Origin: an uncultured Oscillospiraceae bacterium
GTDB taxonomy: Bacteria > Bacillota > Clostridia > Oscillospirales > Ruminococcaceae
NCBI GenBank assembly: GCA_900556525.1
Contig: USOZ01000018.1
Location: 1-15,296 of the forward strand
Length of the DNA: 15,296 bases
Reading direction: 5' to 3'
The translations under genes were made by a program, and so were the position numbers. This document shows positions 1-15,066 of the stretch, in pieces. The notes below the pieces were generated by a model. It saw only the letters and a list, made by a program, of their open reading frames with translations, did no database searches and was not told the origin of the DNA. Within the stretch, counting starts at the first letter, position 1. Every line of letters starts with the position of its first letter.

Positions 1-144
1 TGCAGTTACTTTTTCTGCTGCTTTTGCTACCGGAGCCGGAGTTCCGCTTTTGTCACAAAAAAAAGCCGACGGCTCCCGTGACAATAAAATCACAGAAGTC
101 ATCAGCTTAACAGCGGTTTCGGTTTTACCGAGGGAGAACTTCAT
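1..144 (-). CDS. Possible 5' part of an unrecognised gene running off the left edge
   Basis: An open frame starts at ATG 144 and stays open to base 1, giving 48 residues (MKFSLGKTETAVKLMTSV...). I do not recognise the product. It has a basic, then mildly hydrophobic start, and an Ala/Lys/Pro-rich stretch (APVAKAAEK) at the edge. A good sigma-A promoter lies just upstream (160-188), but it would leave a leader of only about 9 nt with a weak AGGGA ribosome site. The in-frame ATG at 102 is an alternative with no clear site. A GC hairpin followed by eight T on this strand (74-57) falls inside the frame and could be a terminator. The transcript may therefore be a short leader or small RNA rather than mRNA. 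The missing sequence to the left would decide. Confidence 0.35.
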   Translation of the reverse strand, partial: MKFSLGKTETAVKLMTSVILLSREPSAFFCDKSGTPAPVAKAAEKVTA

Positions 145-159
145 TCCCTATTTGCCCTT

Positions 160-10131: not shown

Positions 10132-10160
10132 TTGCAAATCTGCCAAATCTATGATATAAT
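10132..10160 (+). promoter_or_regulatory. Sigma-A promoter of the RING-protein gene
   Basis: TTGCAA (10132-10137) and TATAAT (10155-10160) are separated by 17 nt. The predicted start (near 10167) falls just before the left end of MITE copy 1, so the element forms the bulk of the 5' untranslated leader. Confidence 0.78.
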
Positions 10161-10171
10161 GAAAAAATATA

Positions 10172-10295
10172 GGAAGTGCTGAATAAATCCTGTATGCGGA
10201 TTGCGCAGACAGATTTTTTGTGCAAGTCTGGGGGCGGCTTCCGCCTACGGAAAATATGCAAGAAAGATGCGTGCTGCGATTTATTCAGCGCTTCT
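10172..10295. mobile_element. MITE-like element, copy 1 (about 124 bp)
   Basis: The ends are inverted repeats: GAAGTGCTGAATAAATC (10173-10189) and GATTTATTCAGCGCTTC (10278-10294) match at 16 of 17 positions. TA flanks both sides (10170-10171 and 10296-10297). There is no coding capacity. The core holds a GGCGG/CCGCC hairpin. Left and right arms also occur, with few changes, at 11414-11588, so this is a mobile family rather than a chance hairpin. TA or TTAA flanks and short size suggest a non-autonomous element moved by an IS630/Tc1-type transposase; that link is inference. Confidence 0.8.
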
Positions 10296-10323
10296 TAAGA
10301 TGCGTGCCGCGATTTATTCAGCG
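10264..10323 (+). repeat. Duplicated right end of MITE copy 1
   Basis: A 27-nt sequence (AAGATGCGTGC[T/C]GCGATTTATT + CAGCG) occurs at 10264-10290 and again at 10297-10323, with one mismatch and a 33-nt period. The second copy lies outside the element's inverted repeat and ends in GCGATTCC rather than GCGCTTC. It looks like the remnant of a second, nested or tandem insertion. Confidence 0.8.
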
Positions 10324-10371
10324 ATTCCATGGGAAATGTGCCGAACGAAAAGGACGTTAAAGGAGGCGGTA

Positions 10372-11421
10372 ATGATGAAAGAATATGAGAACAAATGCTG
10401 CATATGCTGCGGAAAAAAGTTTACCGACGATGATGATATAGTTGTCTGCCCCGAGTGCGGGACTCCCATGCACAGGAGCTGCTGGAACGGGCATTGCCCG
10501 AACGAGGATAAGCACGCGCAGGGCTTCGACTGGGATAAGGCGCAGGAAAGCGCGCCGCAGTCCGCCAATGCCGCGCCGCCCGATACGGCAGTTGTGCGCT
10601 GTGATATATGCGGAATGGTAATTGAACCCGACGAGGAAAAGGTTTACTGTCCGGAATGTGGGACTCCTATGCACCGCGACTGCTATGAAAGCTTCGGACG
10701 TTGTCCACACGAAGCCGAACACGCTCTCGGCTACAGTTGGAAAGCGGCTCACGAGCGGCGAACAGGCGAGCCTATCCCGCAGCCAATGAGTTTTGACGGT
10801 TTTGATGATTTCATGGAGCATATGCAGGAAAATCCCATGAAGAATGAAAGTTCGGGCGAGGAGATAACCTGCTGCGGAGTTAAGCAGACCGAGCTGCTGC
10901 ACTTCCTCGGAATGCAAAGACTAAGCACGCCGCGATTTTTCGCGCTGTTCATGAACATGGCGGTTACGGGCAAAAAAGTTTCGTTTAACTTCTTCGCGGG
11001 GCTTCTTATGCCGTTTTATCAGTTTTACCGTAAGATGACGGGACCCGCAATACTTATGACCGCGGCGTATTTTATAATGAATATACCGCAGTTCGTGGTT
11101 CAGTACAATTTTGTAAGAGGCGGGACAGAAATGCATATTTCGTCCGAGCTTCTCTCGATCTACAACATAATGACGTATGTCGGGCTTATAGTCGAGATAC
11201 TCGTGATATTGTTCAACGACTACATTTATATGAAGTGGTCGGTCGGAAAGATCCTTTCGCTGCGCGAGCGGTATCGCAACGCCCCCGAAAGTGAATATAT
11301 GGAAGCGCTCGAGCGCGCGGGCAGACCTAGAATGGCGTTCGCATTTGCCGCGCTTGGCGCTGTCGCGATAATTTTCTACCTCATTTTTGTATTTTTAAGC
11401 GGAAGCTCGTTAAGGTGCTGA
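10372..11421 (+). CDS. Membrane protein with two prokaryotic RING-type zinc fingers
   Basis: The 349-residue protein carries two cysteine/histidine fingers: C10/C13, C26/C29, H34, C37, C42 (1), and C77/C80, C93/C96, H101, C104, C111 (2). Both have the CPECGTPMHR core of the prokaryotic RING finger family 1. After an acidic linker there is a CCG pair and a DUF2628-like membrane part with FFAGLLMPFYQFYRKM (about 207-222). Hydrophobic helices follow near 225-245, 265-285 and 322-343. RING-like fingers in bacteria have been tied to ubiquitin-like systems, but none is visible nearby. ATG 10372 has AAAGGAGG 5 nt upstream; ATG 10375 is equally good. The frame stays open back through MITE copy 1, which I exclude. 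The final two codons and stop lie in MITE copy 2. Confidence 0.82.
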   Translation: MMKEYENKCCICCGKKFTDDDDIVVCPECGTPMHRSCWNGHCPNEDKHAQGFDWDKAQESAPQSANAAPPDTAVVRCDICGMVIEPDEEKVYCPECGTPMHRDCYESFGRCPHEAEHALGYSWKAAHERRTGEPIPQPMSFDGFDDFMEHMQENPMKNESSGEEITCCGVKQTELLHFLGMQRLSTPRFFALFMNMAVTGKKVSFNFFAGLLMPFYQFYRKMTGPAILMTAAYFIMNIPQFVVQYNFVRGGTEMHISSELLSIYNIMTYVGLIVEILVILFNDYIYMKWSVGKILSLRERYRNAPESEYMEALERAGRPRMAFAFAALGAVAIIFYLIFVFLSGSSLRC

Positions 11422-11588
11422 TTAAATCGGGTATGCAGATTGCGCAGACAAATTTTTCGTAGCGGAAGCCGCCCCCAGTGATTGTATGAAAATGACGCAG
11501 GAATACTTGATGTATTTCAAGGAGTTTTCGTGCAATCAGGCGGAAAATATGCAAGCAAGATGCGTGCCGCGATTTATTCAGTGCTTCC
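11414..11588. mobile_element. MITE-like element, copy 2 (about 175 bp)
   Basis: The element is flanked by TTAA on both sides (11410-11413 and 11589-11592). Its left arm GTATGCAGATTGCGCAGACA (11430-11449) and right arm (11541-11588, including GATTTATTCAGTGCTTCC) match copy 1. The left end has lost three bases (GGTGCTGATTAAATC). The 17-nt core GCGGAAGCCGCCCCCAG (11462-11478) is the reverse complement of the core in copy 1 (10228-10244). An extra stretch of about 60 nt with a CTTGA/TCAAG hairpin makes it longer. Its left end overlaps the end of the RING gene and supplies its stop codon. No ORF of note is inside. Confidence 0.82.
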
Positions 11589-11654
11589 TTAATGTGACCG
11601 ACATTGCTCGGATAAAGGCGGCAGCCTGCACCAAAAAAGAAAGGAGCGGACAGA

Positions 11655-13691
11655 ATGTTGATCGACAGATTTGAAGAGCTGTACGGAAAGTACGGCGGAC
11701 GGCTCGTATATCCGTTTCTTTTTATTTCATTCTTTTTGGTGCAGTTTATCGGTGCGCTCGGCATGAGCTATCCCGCTATGGATCCGAACGAGCTTAGCGT
11801 TATTGCGGTTTCGCAGTTTTTTGCGGGAAAAAGTTGGTCTGGCGTGATGTGCGCCGTGGATTATTACTACGGTTTTTTGCAGGGCTTGCTGTATACTCCC
11901 GCCGCGCTTATTTTCAGCGACCCGCAGGCTCAGTATACCGCCATGCTCGCGATAAATTCGCTTATGATGGCGCTTATACCGATACTTGCGTTCTCAGCGG
12001 CGAAAAGGCTCGGAGTGGACAAATTCTGGAAGCTGTTGGCGATTTCGCTTGTTTCAGGCGGCTTCTGCTGCTATTTTGCGCACTCGAAATTCGCGTGGAC
12101 TGAAACTGCTTCAATAGTTATCCCGTGGATATTGCTCTGGCTTTTGTTCAGGATAGGTGACGTTAAAAGCAAGGCTGTGCGCGCGCTGCTCTCTACCGTT
12201 TTCGGTATCGTCTGCGCGCTTTCTCTCGCCGCTCACATACGGCTTATCGCGGTCGTTCTCGCTATATTTGCGGCGATTTTTGCGGAACGCTTCTTCTTCG
12301 GGAAGAAGTCTGTGCTGATGCCGTTTTTCCTGCCCGCGTTCGGCGTTTTTTCGGCGTTGGTTGCGTTTATTTCGCAGGAACTTCGCACATATCTCTGGTG
12401 TCAGTCCGATCCGTCGCTGTTGAAAAACACCGTTTCGTCGTTTTTTGCTGATATTGCGGCAGGATTTGAACAGGGCGGCGTTCTGCGCCTTTTACAGACT
12501 TTCTGTGGACAGCTTTACTATTTCGTAACGGCGACGTGGGGAGTCGGCGCTATAGCGGTATGCCTGTTCGGGGCGGTAGCTGCGGGCTGTATAAGACGTA
12601 AAAAAGGCTCGGAAGAGGTTACATACGGAAGCGGCGCTTCTGTTTTCGCGTTTTTCTCTTTCTTCACCGTCTTTTTCACGATAATCATAGGCACTCTCTA
12701 CCGTTTCGGAAGCGACAGCTTCGGCGTTTATCAGGATACCGCGCTTTTCGGGCGGTTCCTCGACGGAGTGATCCCGATCGCGACAATGTTCGTGATGGTG
12801 ATACTGTTTTCCTACTCTATCTCGCTCAACAAGATACTCGGCTCGATAGCCGTTCTCGGCGTTATCTACCTTGCGTTCTTCGCTTCGACTGTCCCGATGA
12901 TACTCGAATGCGGAATGACGCGCATAGCGCCTGTTCTCGCGCTTTATCCGCTGCGAATCGGCGCGGCGAGCGACGAGCTGCTGAGCTTCGACAGCCTGCT
13001 GCTTACTGCGTCCGTGACGTTCTGCGTTATGGCGCTGTTCATTGTCGTTATAAGCTGCACAAAAAAATACCGCTCGCTTATTTTATCGGGCATACTGCTC
13101 GGAATAACAGTATATTCCGCAGTGTTTATCCAGGCGGAATATCTGCCGATGTGCAGGAACGAGTCTGAGAGCAAGAACTCTGCGGTCGCGGATATCTCCG
13201 AAAGCGTTTACAACCAGGTCGGCGCTCCGCCCGTTACGGCGTATAAGCTGAGCCGCCATGAAACGCTCATGCTCCAGTTCCTCAACAGGGACATAACCGT
13301 CCGCATAACGTATGACATTGAAAATATTCCCGAAAACTGCTATCTCGCAGTAAAGGCGGGCGAGGACGTTTCGGCGCTTTCGAACAGCCGCCGCCCGTTT
13401 CTGCTTGTAAATGAAAATAAGGAGCTTAAATTATACGCCTACGGCGAAAGAGCGGTAGCCTATATGCGTTCGCAGAATATCGGTGAAAACGAGGACACGC
13501 AGGAAACGCTTATCCCCGAAAAAACGACCGCTCCGCAGACGACCGCTCCGCAGACGACTGCGCCGCAGAGCGTTCCCACGGAGCGCACTACCGAGCGCAC
13601 GCCGATGATCTCGACATACACGACGCCTGCGGTCATAACCGTTCCCGCCGAGGAATTTAACTCGGATGACGAATGGGCTTCCATTGAATGA
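11655..13691 (+). CDS. Polytopic membrane protein, GT-C glycosyltransferase-like
   Basis: The 678-residue protein has about a dozen hydrophobic helices from residue 18 to about 496, then a roughly 180-residue soluble tail. An acidic pair in the first outer loop (D43, E46 in AMDPNELSVIAVSQFFAG), followed by GKSWS and YYGFLQGLLYTP, recalls GT-C enzymes of the GT39/ArnT type. These move sugars from lipid-linked donors on the outer face. AHIR near residue 195 fits that picture. The tail holds a mixed alpha/beta part (about 520-615) and a Thr/Pro-rich end with three TTAPQ repeats. ATG 11655 has AAAGGAG at 8 nt. No promoter is clear in the 66 nt after MITE copy 2, so it is probably read from upstream. 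GT activity is inference. Confidence 0.65.
   Translation: MLIDRFEELYGKYGGRLVYPFLFISFFLVQFIGALGMSYPAMDPNELSVIAVSQFFAGKSWSGVMCAVDYYYGFLQGLLYTPAALIFSDPQAQYTAMLAINSLMMALIPILAFSAAKRLGVDKFWKLLAISLVSGGFCCYFAHSKFAWTETASIVIPWILLWLLFRIGDVKSKAVRALLSTVFGIVCALSLAAHIRLIAVVLAIFAAIFAERFFFGKKSVLMPFFLPAFGVFSALVAFISQELRTYLWCQSDPSLLKNTVSSFFADIAAGFEQGGVLRLLQTFCGQLYYFVTATWGVGAIAVCLFGAVAAGCIRRKKGSEEVTYGSGASVFAFFSFFTVFFTIIIGTLYRFGSDSFGVYQDTALFGRFLDGVIPIATMFVMVILFSYSISLNKILGSIAVLGVIYLAFFASTVPMILECGMTRIAPVLALYPLRIGAASDELLSFDSLLLTASVTFCVMALFIVVISCTKKYRSLILSGILLGITVYSAVFIQAEYLPMCRNESESKNSAVADISESVYNQVGAPPVTAYKLSRHETLMLQFLNRDITVRITYDIENIPENCYLAVKAGEDVSALSNSRRPFLLVNENKELKLYAYGERAVAYMRSQNIGENEDTQETLIPEKTTAPQTTAPQTTAPQSVPTERTTERTPMISTYTTPAVITVPAEEFNSDDEWASIE
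13524..13568 (+). repeat. Three 15-bp tandem repeats encoding TTAPQ
   Basis: The unit ACGACCGCTCCGCAG occurs at 13524-13538 and 13539-13553, and as ACGACTGCGCCGCAG at 13554-13568. It codes for a Thr/Pro linker near the end of the GT-C-like protein. Copy number is probably variable by slippage without changing frame. Confidence 0.9.
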
Positions 13692-13710
13692 TGATTAAGG
13701 AGGGGTGAAC

Positions 13711-15066
13711 TTGCCCATACTTCAGCCTAAAAAAAATAAAACTATAACTCCCGCGAGAACGCTTGCTCTAGGATTTATAATAATTATTCTGATAGGCGCG
13801 GTGCTGCTTTTCATGCCTTTTTCTTCAAGCAACGGGAGCTTCACTGATTTTGTGGACTGTCTTTTCACGGCTGCTTCGGCGACCTGCGTTACCGGCATAA
13901 GCGTCGTGGAAACATACACGCACTGGTCGATAATAGGGCAGGTTGTAATCCTTCTTCTTATTCAAGTAGGCGGTCTGGGATTTGTTACTTTGGTAACGTT
14001 TTTCAACTTTGCGATAGGTAAGAAGATAGGGCTGCTCAAGGCGAACAGCATAAGCGGGGATTTCTCTATGAGCGGACTTTCCGCGACAAAGAAGCTTTTC
14101 ACGCGTATCGTTGCGGTCTCGCTTTCCGTTGAAACTGCGGGAGCGTGCCTGCTTATGGTGCGCTTTATTCCCGACTACGGCGGATACGGCGTTTTTATGG
14201 CGTTTTTCACGGCGGTTTCGGCTTTCTGCAACGCGGGTTTTGACCTTTTCGGAATCGACGGAGAGGGAATGGGGCTTTCGGGCTTTATCGATGACCCGTA
14301 TGTGCTTATGATAATTGCGCTGCTCATTATTCTTGGCGGACTTGGCTTTGTCGTATGGGAGGAGCTGCTTAGCTACAGAAAAGAGAAGCATTTTTCGCTG
14401 CATACGCGGATAGTTCTTATTTCGACGGGCGTTCTGCTTGTTCTTGGAATGCTGATATATCTCACGACGGCGCTTACCGTCCCGTCCATTTTCGGTGAAT
14501 ATTCATTCGGTCAAAAGCTCTACACGTCGTTTTTTGCAAGCGCCTCTGCTCGCACCGGCGGCTTTACCGCTGCGCCGTATCCGCTTGCGAACAGCTTTTC
14601 TCAGCTTTTCACGATACTCCTCATGTTTATCGGCGCAGCCCCCGGTTCGACGGGCGGCGGCATAAAAATAACTGCCGCGGCAATTCTCATATCAACGGCG
14701 TGGTCGGTTCTTCGCGGCAGAGAGGATACGCAGATGCTGGGCCATGTCGTAACAAAGCAGGTCGTTTACAAAACGTTGACGGTTTTATTTCTGTCGCTGG
14801 CATTCCTCGTTACGGGATTTTTCGTTATTCACCTGCTGAACATCGACACGAACCCGCTTGACGTGCTTTTCGAGGTCGTTTCGGCGTTCTCGACTACGGG
14901 ATATTCGGCGGGTGTTTCGGCATGCTCCGGACCGGCGACGAAGATACTGCTTTCGTTTATCATGTACGTCGGGCGGATAGGTCCCGTTTCGCTTATGCTT
15001 TCCTTTACGGGAACGCAGACCGTGAACCGCAGCCGCATACTGCCTCAGGGTGAGATAATGGTATGA
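13711..15066 (+). CDS. Potassium uptake channel subunit, KtrB/TrkH family
   Basis: The 451-residue protein has the four-fold M1-P-M2 layout of the K+ transporter family. The four filter glycines appear in order: TCVTG (about 62), FCNAG (176), ARTGG (283) and STTGY (397). The third repeat is followed by the family's gating loop APGSTGGGIK (about 309-318). It moves K+ (with or without Na+) into the cell together with a cytosolic RCK subunit, KtrA/TrkA, which is not in the window. TTG 13711 is preferred because AGGAGG lies 7 nt upstream; GTG 13705 sits inside that site. The gene begins 19 nt after the GT-C-like gene, so the two are probably one transcript. It is close to full length for KtrB. 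Confidence 0.92.
   Translation: MPILQPKKNKTITPARTLALGFIIIILIGAVLLFMPFSSSNGSFTDFVDCLFTAASATCVTGISVVETYTHWSIIGQVVILLLIQVGGLGFVTLVTFFNFAIGKKIGLLKANSISGDFSMSGLSATKKLFTRIVAVSLSVETAGACLLMVRFIPDYGGYGVFMAFFTAVSAFCNAGFDLFGIDGEGMGLSGFIDDPYVLMIIALLIILGGLGFVVWEELLSYRKEKHFSLHTRIVLISTGVLLVLGMLIYLTTALTVPSIFGEYSFGQKLYTSFFASASARTGGFTAAPYPLANSFSQLFTILLMFIGAAPGSTGGGIKITAAAILISTAWSVLRGREDTQMLGHVVTKQVVYKTLTVLFLSLAFLVTGFFVIHLLNIDTNPLDVLFEVVSAFSTTGYSAGVSACSGPATKILLSFIMYVGRIGPVSLMLSFTGTQTVNRSRILPQGEIMV

Follow-up and report, generated by a model that had tools for sequence, protein, structure and literature searches.

Two elements beside a RING-type gene are probably decayed insertions of an IS5-linked MITE family with a conserved, folded interior

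Why do two short, related elements bracket a single gene in this stretch of DNA (15,296 nucleotides, hereafter the window) from an uncultured Oscillospiraceae bacterium? The elements, called E1 and E2, lie on either side of a gene for a RING-type protein. The original prediction held that they are copies of a mobile, MITE-like element, that a transposase of the Tc1/IS630 type may stand behind them, and that the pair could carry the gene as a composite unit. The locus therefore raises the questions of whether a mobile family exists, what its interior is kept for, whether the gene travels with it, and which transposase moves it. The features of the window are as follows (coordinates, strand, description).

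86-157, minus strand: fluoride riboswitch (Rfam RF01734, 46 bits)
10132-10160, plus strand: promoter-like site upstream of E1 (TTGCAA, 17 nt, TATAAT, with TG before; promoter scan)
10172-10295, plus strand: E1, a degenerate MITE with type A terminal repeats (GGAAGTGCTGAATAAATC / reverse complement of GATTTATTCAGCGCTTC; covariance-model match 10190-10288, 48 bits)
10296-10328, plus strand: further right-end remnant directly 3' of E1, 33 bp (exact right-end motif at 10299-10321)
10372-11421, plus strand: Prok-RING_1 protein gene between E1 and E2 (Pfam PF14446; ORF list)
11410-11413, no strand: TTAA, left copy of the E2 target duplication (read in the sequence; its length is that of the family's duplications)
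11414-11588, plus strand: E2, a near-complete MITE that is predicted to fold as one hairpin over its full length (covariance-model match 11429-11581, 79 bits)
11589-11592, no strand: TTAA, right copy of the E2 target duplication (read in the sequence)
11655-13691, plus strand: gene for a large protein with no Pfam match, a conserved neighbour of the RING-type gene in relatives

The presence of two related elements, as predicted, is borne out by the right-end motif, which occurs three times in the window and not once in 200 shuffles, and by the identity of E1 and E2 in their left arms (87% over 46 nt) and right arms (94% over 47 nt). The left end of E2 is 3 bp shorter than that of E1. The conserved interior is present in E1 without its centre, and the middles of the two elements differ. 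TTAA stands directly outside both ends of E2, and its duplication is therefore 4 bp, not TA. Thus the TA/TTAA flanks described earlier hold for E2 as TTAA on both sides, but not as a TA duplication, and not for E1. The latter lacks a clean target duplication because a third, partial right end, the remnant at 10296-10328, adjoins it; this remnant forms an inverted repeat (I4) with the left end of E1. Both elements also contain a small hairpin of the GGCGGCTTCCGC type, in opposite orientation (I3), and small hairpins of ~20 nt are inserted at varied interior points in E1, E2 and the relatives' loci L028, L042, L043 and L044. The elements may serve as targets for another mobile repeat of very small size.

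Relatives found via the TrkH gene comprised two 'Ruminiclostridium' MAGs. When E1 was used as a DNA query, matches were obtained in 8 of 71 genomes of the genus group, with few candidates scored per genome, and in 14 of 396 genomes of the family, with at most two candidates scored per genome. A covariance model of the interior (R1), run at E 0.001 with no more than eight candidates scored per genome, matched 110 of the 396 genomes of the family. At E 1e-5 it also matched 22 genomes in a sample of 291 from the class, and two of these 22 had already come up in the family search. Elements in the collected loci are usually 161-173 bp long and consist of a GG-starting repeat of ~18 bp, the common interior and the inverted repeat. 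Two end types recur, namely type A (GGAAGYRCTGATTAAATC), which is that of the window, and type B (GGCAAYACCGCACAAAGA), with a B-like variant that starts GGCTATACC; one element, in L032, has other ends. The prediction of a non-autonomous, MITE-like element agrees with the length range of 124-227 bp over 40 elements and with the lack of any reading frame that is open in all cores. The best frame, plus-0, is open in 43 of 72 distinct interior cores, and a peptide made from it, which is formally still admissible, is counted against the explanation favoured here.

Recent transposition is plain in one relative, G183. On its 3.56-Mb contig the type B repeat occurs 126 times per strand with at most two mismatches, versus 0 for a reversed control. 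Scoring of 40 of the 206 first-look candidates gave 41 matches, of which 23 are identical over 172 bp, 17 are at 99% and one is at 70%. Far from there being two copies only and no empty sites, many copies occur in other genomes and relatives lack an element at the homologous sites, as expected of the mobile family that had been proposed.

Some family members are very short. Minimal elements of 46-59 bp, with little beyond two type B repeats, were seen in L107 (6114-6159), L068, L069, L050 and L052, some of them with equal 4-bp flanks. In the draft genome G071, at least 15 contigs start ~90-150 bp inside an element end, and the repeat therefore seems to break assembly.

Several other collections were searched. 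The right end as an exact pattern, which is too strict for relatives, had 0 matches in the genome contig and viral contig collections, and the interior pattern likewise had 0 matches in viral contigs. No match was found in plasmid records with three queries, or in phage records with the window region as query. A relative's element, when used as query against the phage records, matched six unannotated faecal scaffolds without sign of being phages; four of the six were read, and ordinary repeat pairs were present in all four.

An interior of ~136 nt is shared by elements with terminal repeats of two kinds, which correspond to two transposase clades among the few sequences compared. For 21 interiors, RNAalifold predicts one long hairpin, in which 25 of 50 pairs show two-sided change, versus 13.4 (sd 1.8) in shuffles and at most 13 in slid versions of the structure. 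For 30 family loci the corresponding value is 34 of 50 pairs, versus 15.8 (sd 2.1) in shuffles and at most 17 in slid versions, in an alignment that was made to the covariance model and so leans towards structure, and some of its rows were also in the training set. Counted over the paired cells, there are 125 G-U versus 5 A-C, and 170 versus 3 in the 30-locus set; part of this excess is expected, since G-U is preferred to A-C by structure prediction as such. Of 40 elements, 39 have the more stable fold on the plus strand (mean -87.9 versus -62.8 kcal/mol), the 40th being a copy oriented in reverse with respect to the model strand. DNA parameters also make the plus strand the more stable one in 39 of 40, and this asymmetry is not proof of RNA because G-U and G-T are tolerated in RNA and single-stranded DNA alike. 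On these predicted structures, it is the folding of a single strand that has been kept.

A tree of 78 interiors indicates that the end type changes five to six times, a number that is rough given the few columns, with at least two changes forced by well-supported branches. The interior has therefore been joined to both end types more than once. Comparison with known RNA families (Rfam 15) returned only the fluoride riboswitch in the window at the gathering score, and no credible match on an element in six element-bearing loci at E 0.5. The sole microRNA match in these six loci, at E 0.11 and far below the cut-off, falls on the minimal element of L107.

How might such a fold serve its host? We lean slightly towards the interior being kept as RNA when the element is transcribed. 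In the window, the folded interior would act within the transcripts that it has entered, E1 in a leader and E2 between two genes, and its role would be in the processing or stability of the host message. E1 lies between the promoter-like site at 10132-10160 and the start codon of the RING-type gene; the scan found two promoter-like sites versus a shuffle mean of 2.9, and hence no excess. A terminator role of the elements was considered and rejected, both terminator-like sites found being outside the elements. Genes flanking 77 copies in G183 show no sense excess, with 17 copies in the same orientation as both neighbours versus 29 opposite to both. A cruder count of 74 copies, for which the gene caller let frames run through masked elements, gave 12 versus 26. 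As this sense bias beside genes is missing, a simple role at mRNA ends is not supported, and it is mainly for this reason, since an RNA role would not predict the lack, that our preference for RNA remains a slight one.

Orientation with respect to replication points elsewhere. It is possible, at odds that we rate well short of even, that the hairpin of the interior owes its retention to a role as single-stranded DNA, being tuned to the replication fork such that copies insert or survive in one orientation to fork movement. The replichores of G183 were assigned from the GC skew of 50 stretches, among which single stretches vary. On this basis, the stable strand is in the lagging orientation in 35 of 40 copies of 99-100% identity (binomial p 1.4e-6), or 22:1 in one arm and 13:4 in the other. 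The same holds for 60 of the 78 copies in 593 kb of retrieved sequence, which stem partly from a plus-strand-heavy list, and for 56 to 61 of the 78 when the arm borders are moved. In the right arm the bias holds whichever way the neighbouring genes point, with 15:2 where both are plus genes and 8:2 where both are minus genes; the corresponding ratios in the left arm, where it is weaker, are 4:3 and 9:3. The bias is highest in copies that are 99-100% identical (38 of 44) and then runs through 7 of 9 and 8 of 12 to 7 of 13 in ever older copies, which speaks for bias at insertion over slow purging.

Other genomes are less clear on this point. In drafts, where local GC skew only was used, G071 agrees with the fork reading (17 of 23), but G356, G061 and G025 together give 11 of 22, and the four pooled give 28 of 45 (p 0.14). 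Against this reading it also counts that the less stable strand is the one on the lagging-strand template. Furthermore, Tn7, IS608 and a number of IS families are known to orient with replication, several ordinary IS families through clamp binding (available portion of PMC5371812), so no hairpin is needed for such a bias.

More broadly, we would tentatively entertain, as a possibility to which we give somewhat more weight than to the fork reading by itself, a mobile cassette that is independent of any transposon and consists of a folded RNA or a fork-sensing DNA hairpin. Such a cassette would have undergone repeated swaps of terminal repeats and transposases across gut Clostridia, with a selected fold and with its folded strand fixed relative to the fork.

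It is improbable that the interior is kept as neither RNA nor single-stranded DNA. More doubtful still is that the interior is a neutral leftover, with a hairpin and covariation that come from arm-to-arm palindrome correction during replication. Correction of quasi-palindromes makes their arms covary, and the element is palindromic from end to end. However, such correction is strand-blind, yet G-U and A-C stand at 170 to 3 and one strand folds better in nearly every element (39 of 40). An interior common to different terminal repeats also argues against a leftover.

The gene between the elements was the reason for suspecting a composite transposon, in which E1, E2 and the RING-type gene would move together. 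One gene is indeed bracketed by two like-oriented copies, and the outer repeats are inverted (I2), but the neighbourhood in relatives makes this proposal highly improbable. A RING match at 1e-40 was found in 15 of 149 relatives, and 14 of these 15 have the window's next gene as its immediate neighbour, with no element matched there. The gap between the aligned parts of the two genes is 40-129 bp in relatives versus 233 bp in the window, and covariance model R1 had no match in the 17 loci of the 15 RING-bearing genomes. TrkH then follows the gene pair in both of the longer relative loci, L001 and L002, in which the order Prok-RING_1, large protein, TrkH (window 10372-15066) is conserved. In addition, internal decay differs between E1 and E2, E2 is flanked by its own target duplication, and no second copy of the unit came to notice. 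Since the gene pair is syntenic without the element in relatives, these genes are long-standing neighbours among which E1 and E2 landed. The RING-type gene is not cargo, and the elements came to lie beside it by insertion. In several relatives, additional RING-like stretches precede the RING match.

The insertion of E2 has left its mark on the gene. The last codon and the stop codon (11419-11421) of the RING-type gene are supplied by the left end of E2. The closest other RING protein is P0001, 93% identical in the alignment; P0002 is 85% identical. P0001 ends in ...SSLRMC, versus ...SSLRC in the window, and P0002 ends otherwise. The C-terminus of P0001 is that expected from an E2 with three more left-end bases, and E2 is therefore probably older than the split of the window and P0001 strains.

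The original prediction also called for a transposase whose ends match the inverted repeats, and elements of this kind were found in relatives. They encode a transposase of the IS5 type (NCBIfam NF033581), which has a match in 8 of 21 element-bearing genomes, four of them above the cut-off. Among 392 family genomes, 35 have a match at 1e-30 and 17 pass the cut-off. G356 and G268 carry NF033581 elements of ~1.2 kb with GGAAACGCTGAWTAAATC-type ends, and the window 12-mer GCTGAATAAATC is identical to these IS ends. At contig ends of G356, TTAA or CTAA is followed by GGAAACGCTGAATAAATC, with a protein start in two of four cases. Ends of the GGCAATACCGCAC type occur on the NF033581 elements of G209, G365, G178 and others; G209 has six NF033581 copies, and ends were read in one, L268.

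A total of 31 IS loci were examined for their ends. Type A ends stand on both sides in L127, L128 and L135, and B-like ends on both sides in L268, L269 and L276. One B end is present in L270, L271 and L272, one A-like end in L273 and L275, B-like ends in the truncated IS loci L279, L280 and L281, and other ends in L129. Thirteen IS loci below the NF033581 cut-off (L282-L294) have neither end type. The transposase clades agree with end type, in that three A sequences from two genomes are 93-97% identical and four B sequences 59-77%, versus 40-45% between A and B, although these are few sequences. Both flanks were read for four IS copies; 3, 2, 3 and 3 of the 4 flank bases agree, and there is no perfect duplication. 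A lone repeat end in L182 was considered as an IS end and rejected, as only a membrane-protein-like frame adjoins it.

The elements have no transposase of their own, and their terminal repeats match those of autonomous IS5-family elements, except in G183 itself. This genome, despite its 126 repeat matches per strand, has no NF033581 match. PF01609 is present in 2 of 10 genomes with B or B-like ends, and the loci of the G183 PF01609 proteins have no unpaired type B repeat; the transposase of G183 is therefore unseen. These G183 proteins are arranged in tandem, with a DDE_Tnp_1 frame of 459 aa repeated at a spacing of 1,625 bp, at two places (G183:C2 557287-559676 and 1885286-1887675).

Target duplications were assessed in the same genome. 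Of 78 copies delimited in 593 kb, 59 have identical 4-bp flanks, A/T-rich as a rule, which are TTAA (26), TATA (9), TTTA (8), CTAA (5), TAAA (4) and others (7, including TTAG twice). Across 37 loci, a repeat pair was detected in 28 elements, 21 of which have equal 4-bp flanks, under a scoring that favoured matching flanks; CAAG is also among the duplications of the family. IS5 target duplications are described as YTAR in the accessible text of one report (PMC10359306). This pattern is strictly fitted by 33 of the 59 G183 duplications (TTAA 26, CTAA 5, TTAG 2) and not by the other 26; in the window, E2 (TTAA/TTAA) has a 4-bp YTAR-like duplication and E1 does not. A Tc1/IS630-type MITE with a TA duplication, the guess made originally, is the least credible reading of all, because although TA is contained in TTAA, the duplications are 4 bp (for example TTTA, CTAA, TAAA and CAAG) and the ends match those of NF033581 elements, which have an IS5-family transposase.

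Taken as a whole, the explanation that we favour, with a probability of roughly 85%, is that E1 and E2 both stem from insertions, since decayed, of a non-autonomous, IS5-linked MITE family common in gut Clostridia around the 'Ruminiclostridium' MAGs, moved in trans and with an interior under selection for its fold, and that the RING-type gene is not their cargo. An IS5-type transposase encoded elsewhere would bind the repeats and move the element. The interior would be retained because its folded strand works, and it may have changed transposase partner by taking on other terminal repeats.

These findings matter in three respects. The interior of a MITE is usually regarded as padding that separates the ends on which the transposase depends. 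An interior that is conserved over many genomes, with a one-strand fold and two kinds of ends, offers a testable case for a working structural RNA or DNA within a MITE. With 126 repeat matches per strand, one chromosome documents the replication-linked orientation of natural insertions, and the element is a common repeat at which draft assemblies break.

No description of this MITE family was found in the literature searched, which left subscription journals mostly outside its scope, and the element sequence strings turn up in unrelated papers only. Like IS5-family MITEs, the elements are short and non-coding, with terminal repeats resembling those of a parent IS and a 4-bp duplication. Parent-derived MITEs are usually deletion copies of one IS, whereas here one conserved, covarying interior lies behind the ends of two transposase clades. 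ERIC, BOX and REP are likewise intergenic, palindromic repeats that fold back and occur in many copies, but the present family has clear 4-bp duplications and matching IS5 elements. The Correia elements of Neisseria have a TA target duplication, in contrast with 4 bp here, and differ in sequence and hosts. Correia elements (CREE/NEMIS) are also an abundant MITE, with transcripts that are cut by RNase III, as set out in the available part of a paper that treats ERIC among other repeats (PMC10969869). The TnsE route of Tn7 and IS608 are similar in that orientation follows replication (PMC5371812, available portion), but here strong bias is seen in one genome only. MITEs, IS5 MITEs and RNase-processed MITEs are thus already known, and what is new is a conserved, covarying interior common to two transposase lineages.
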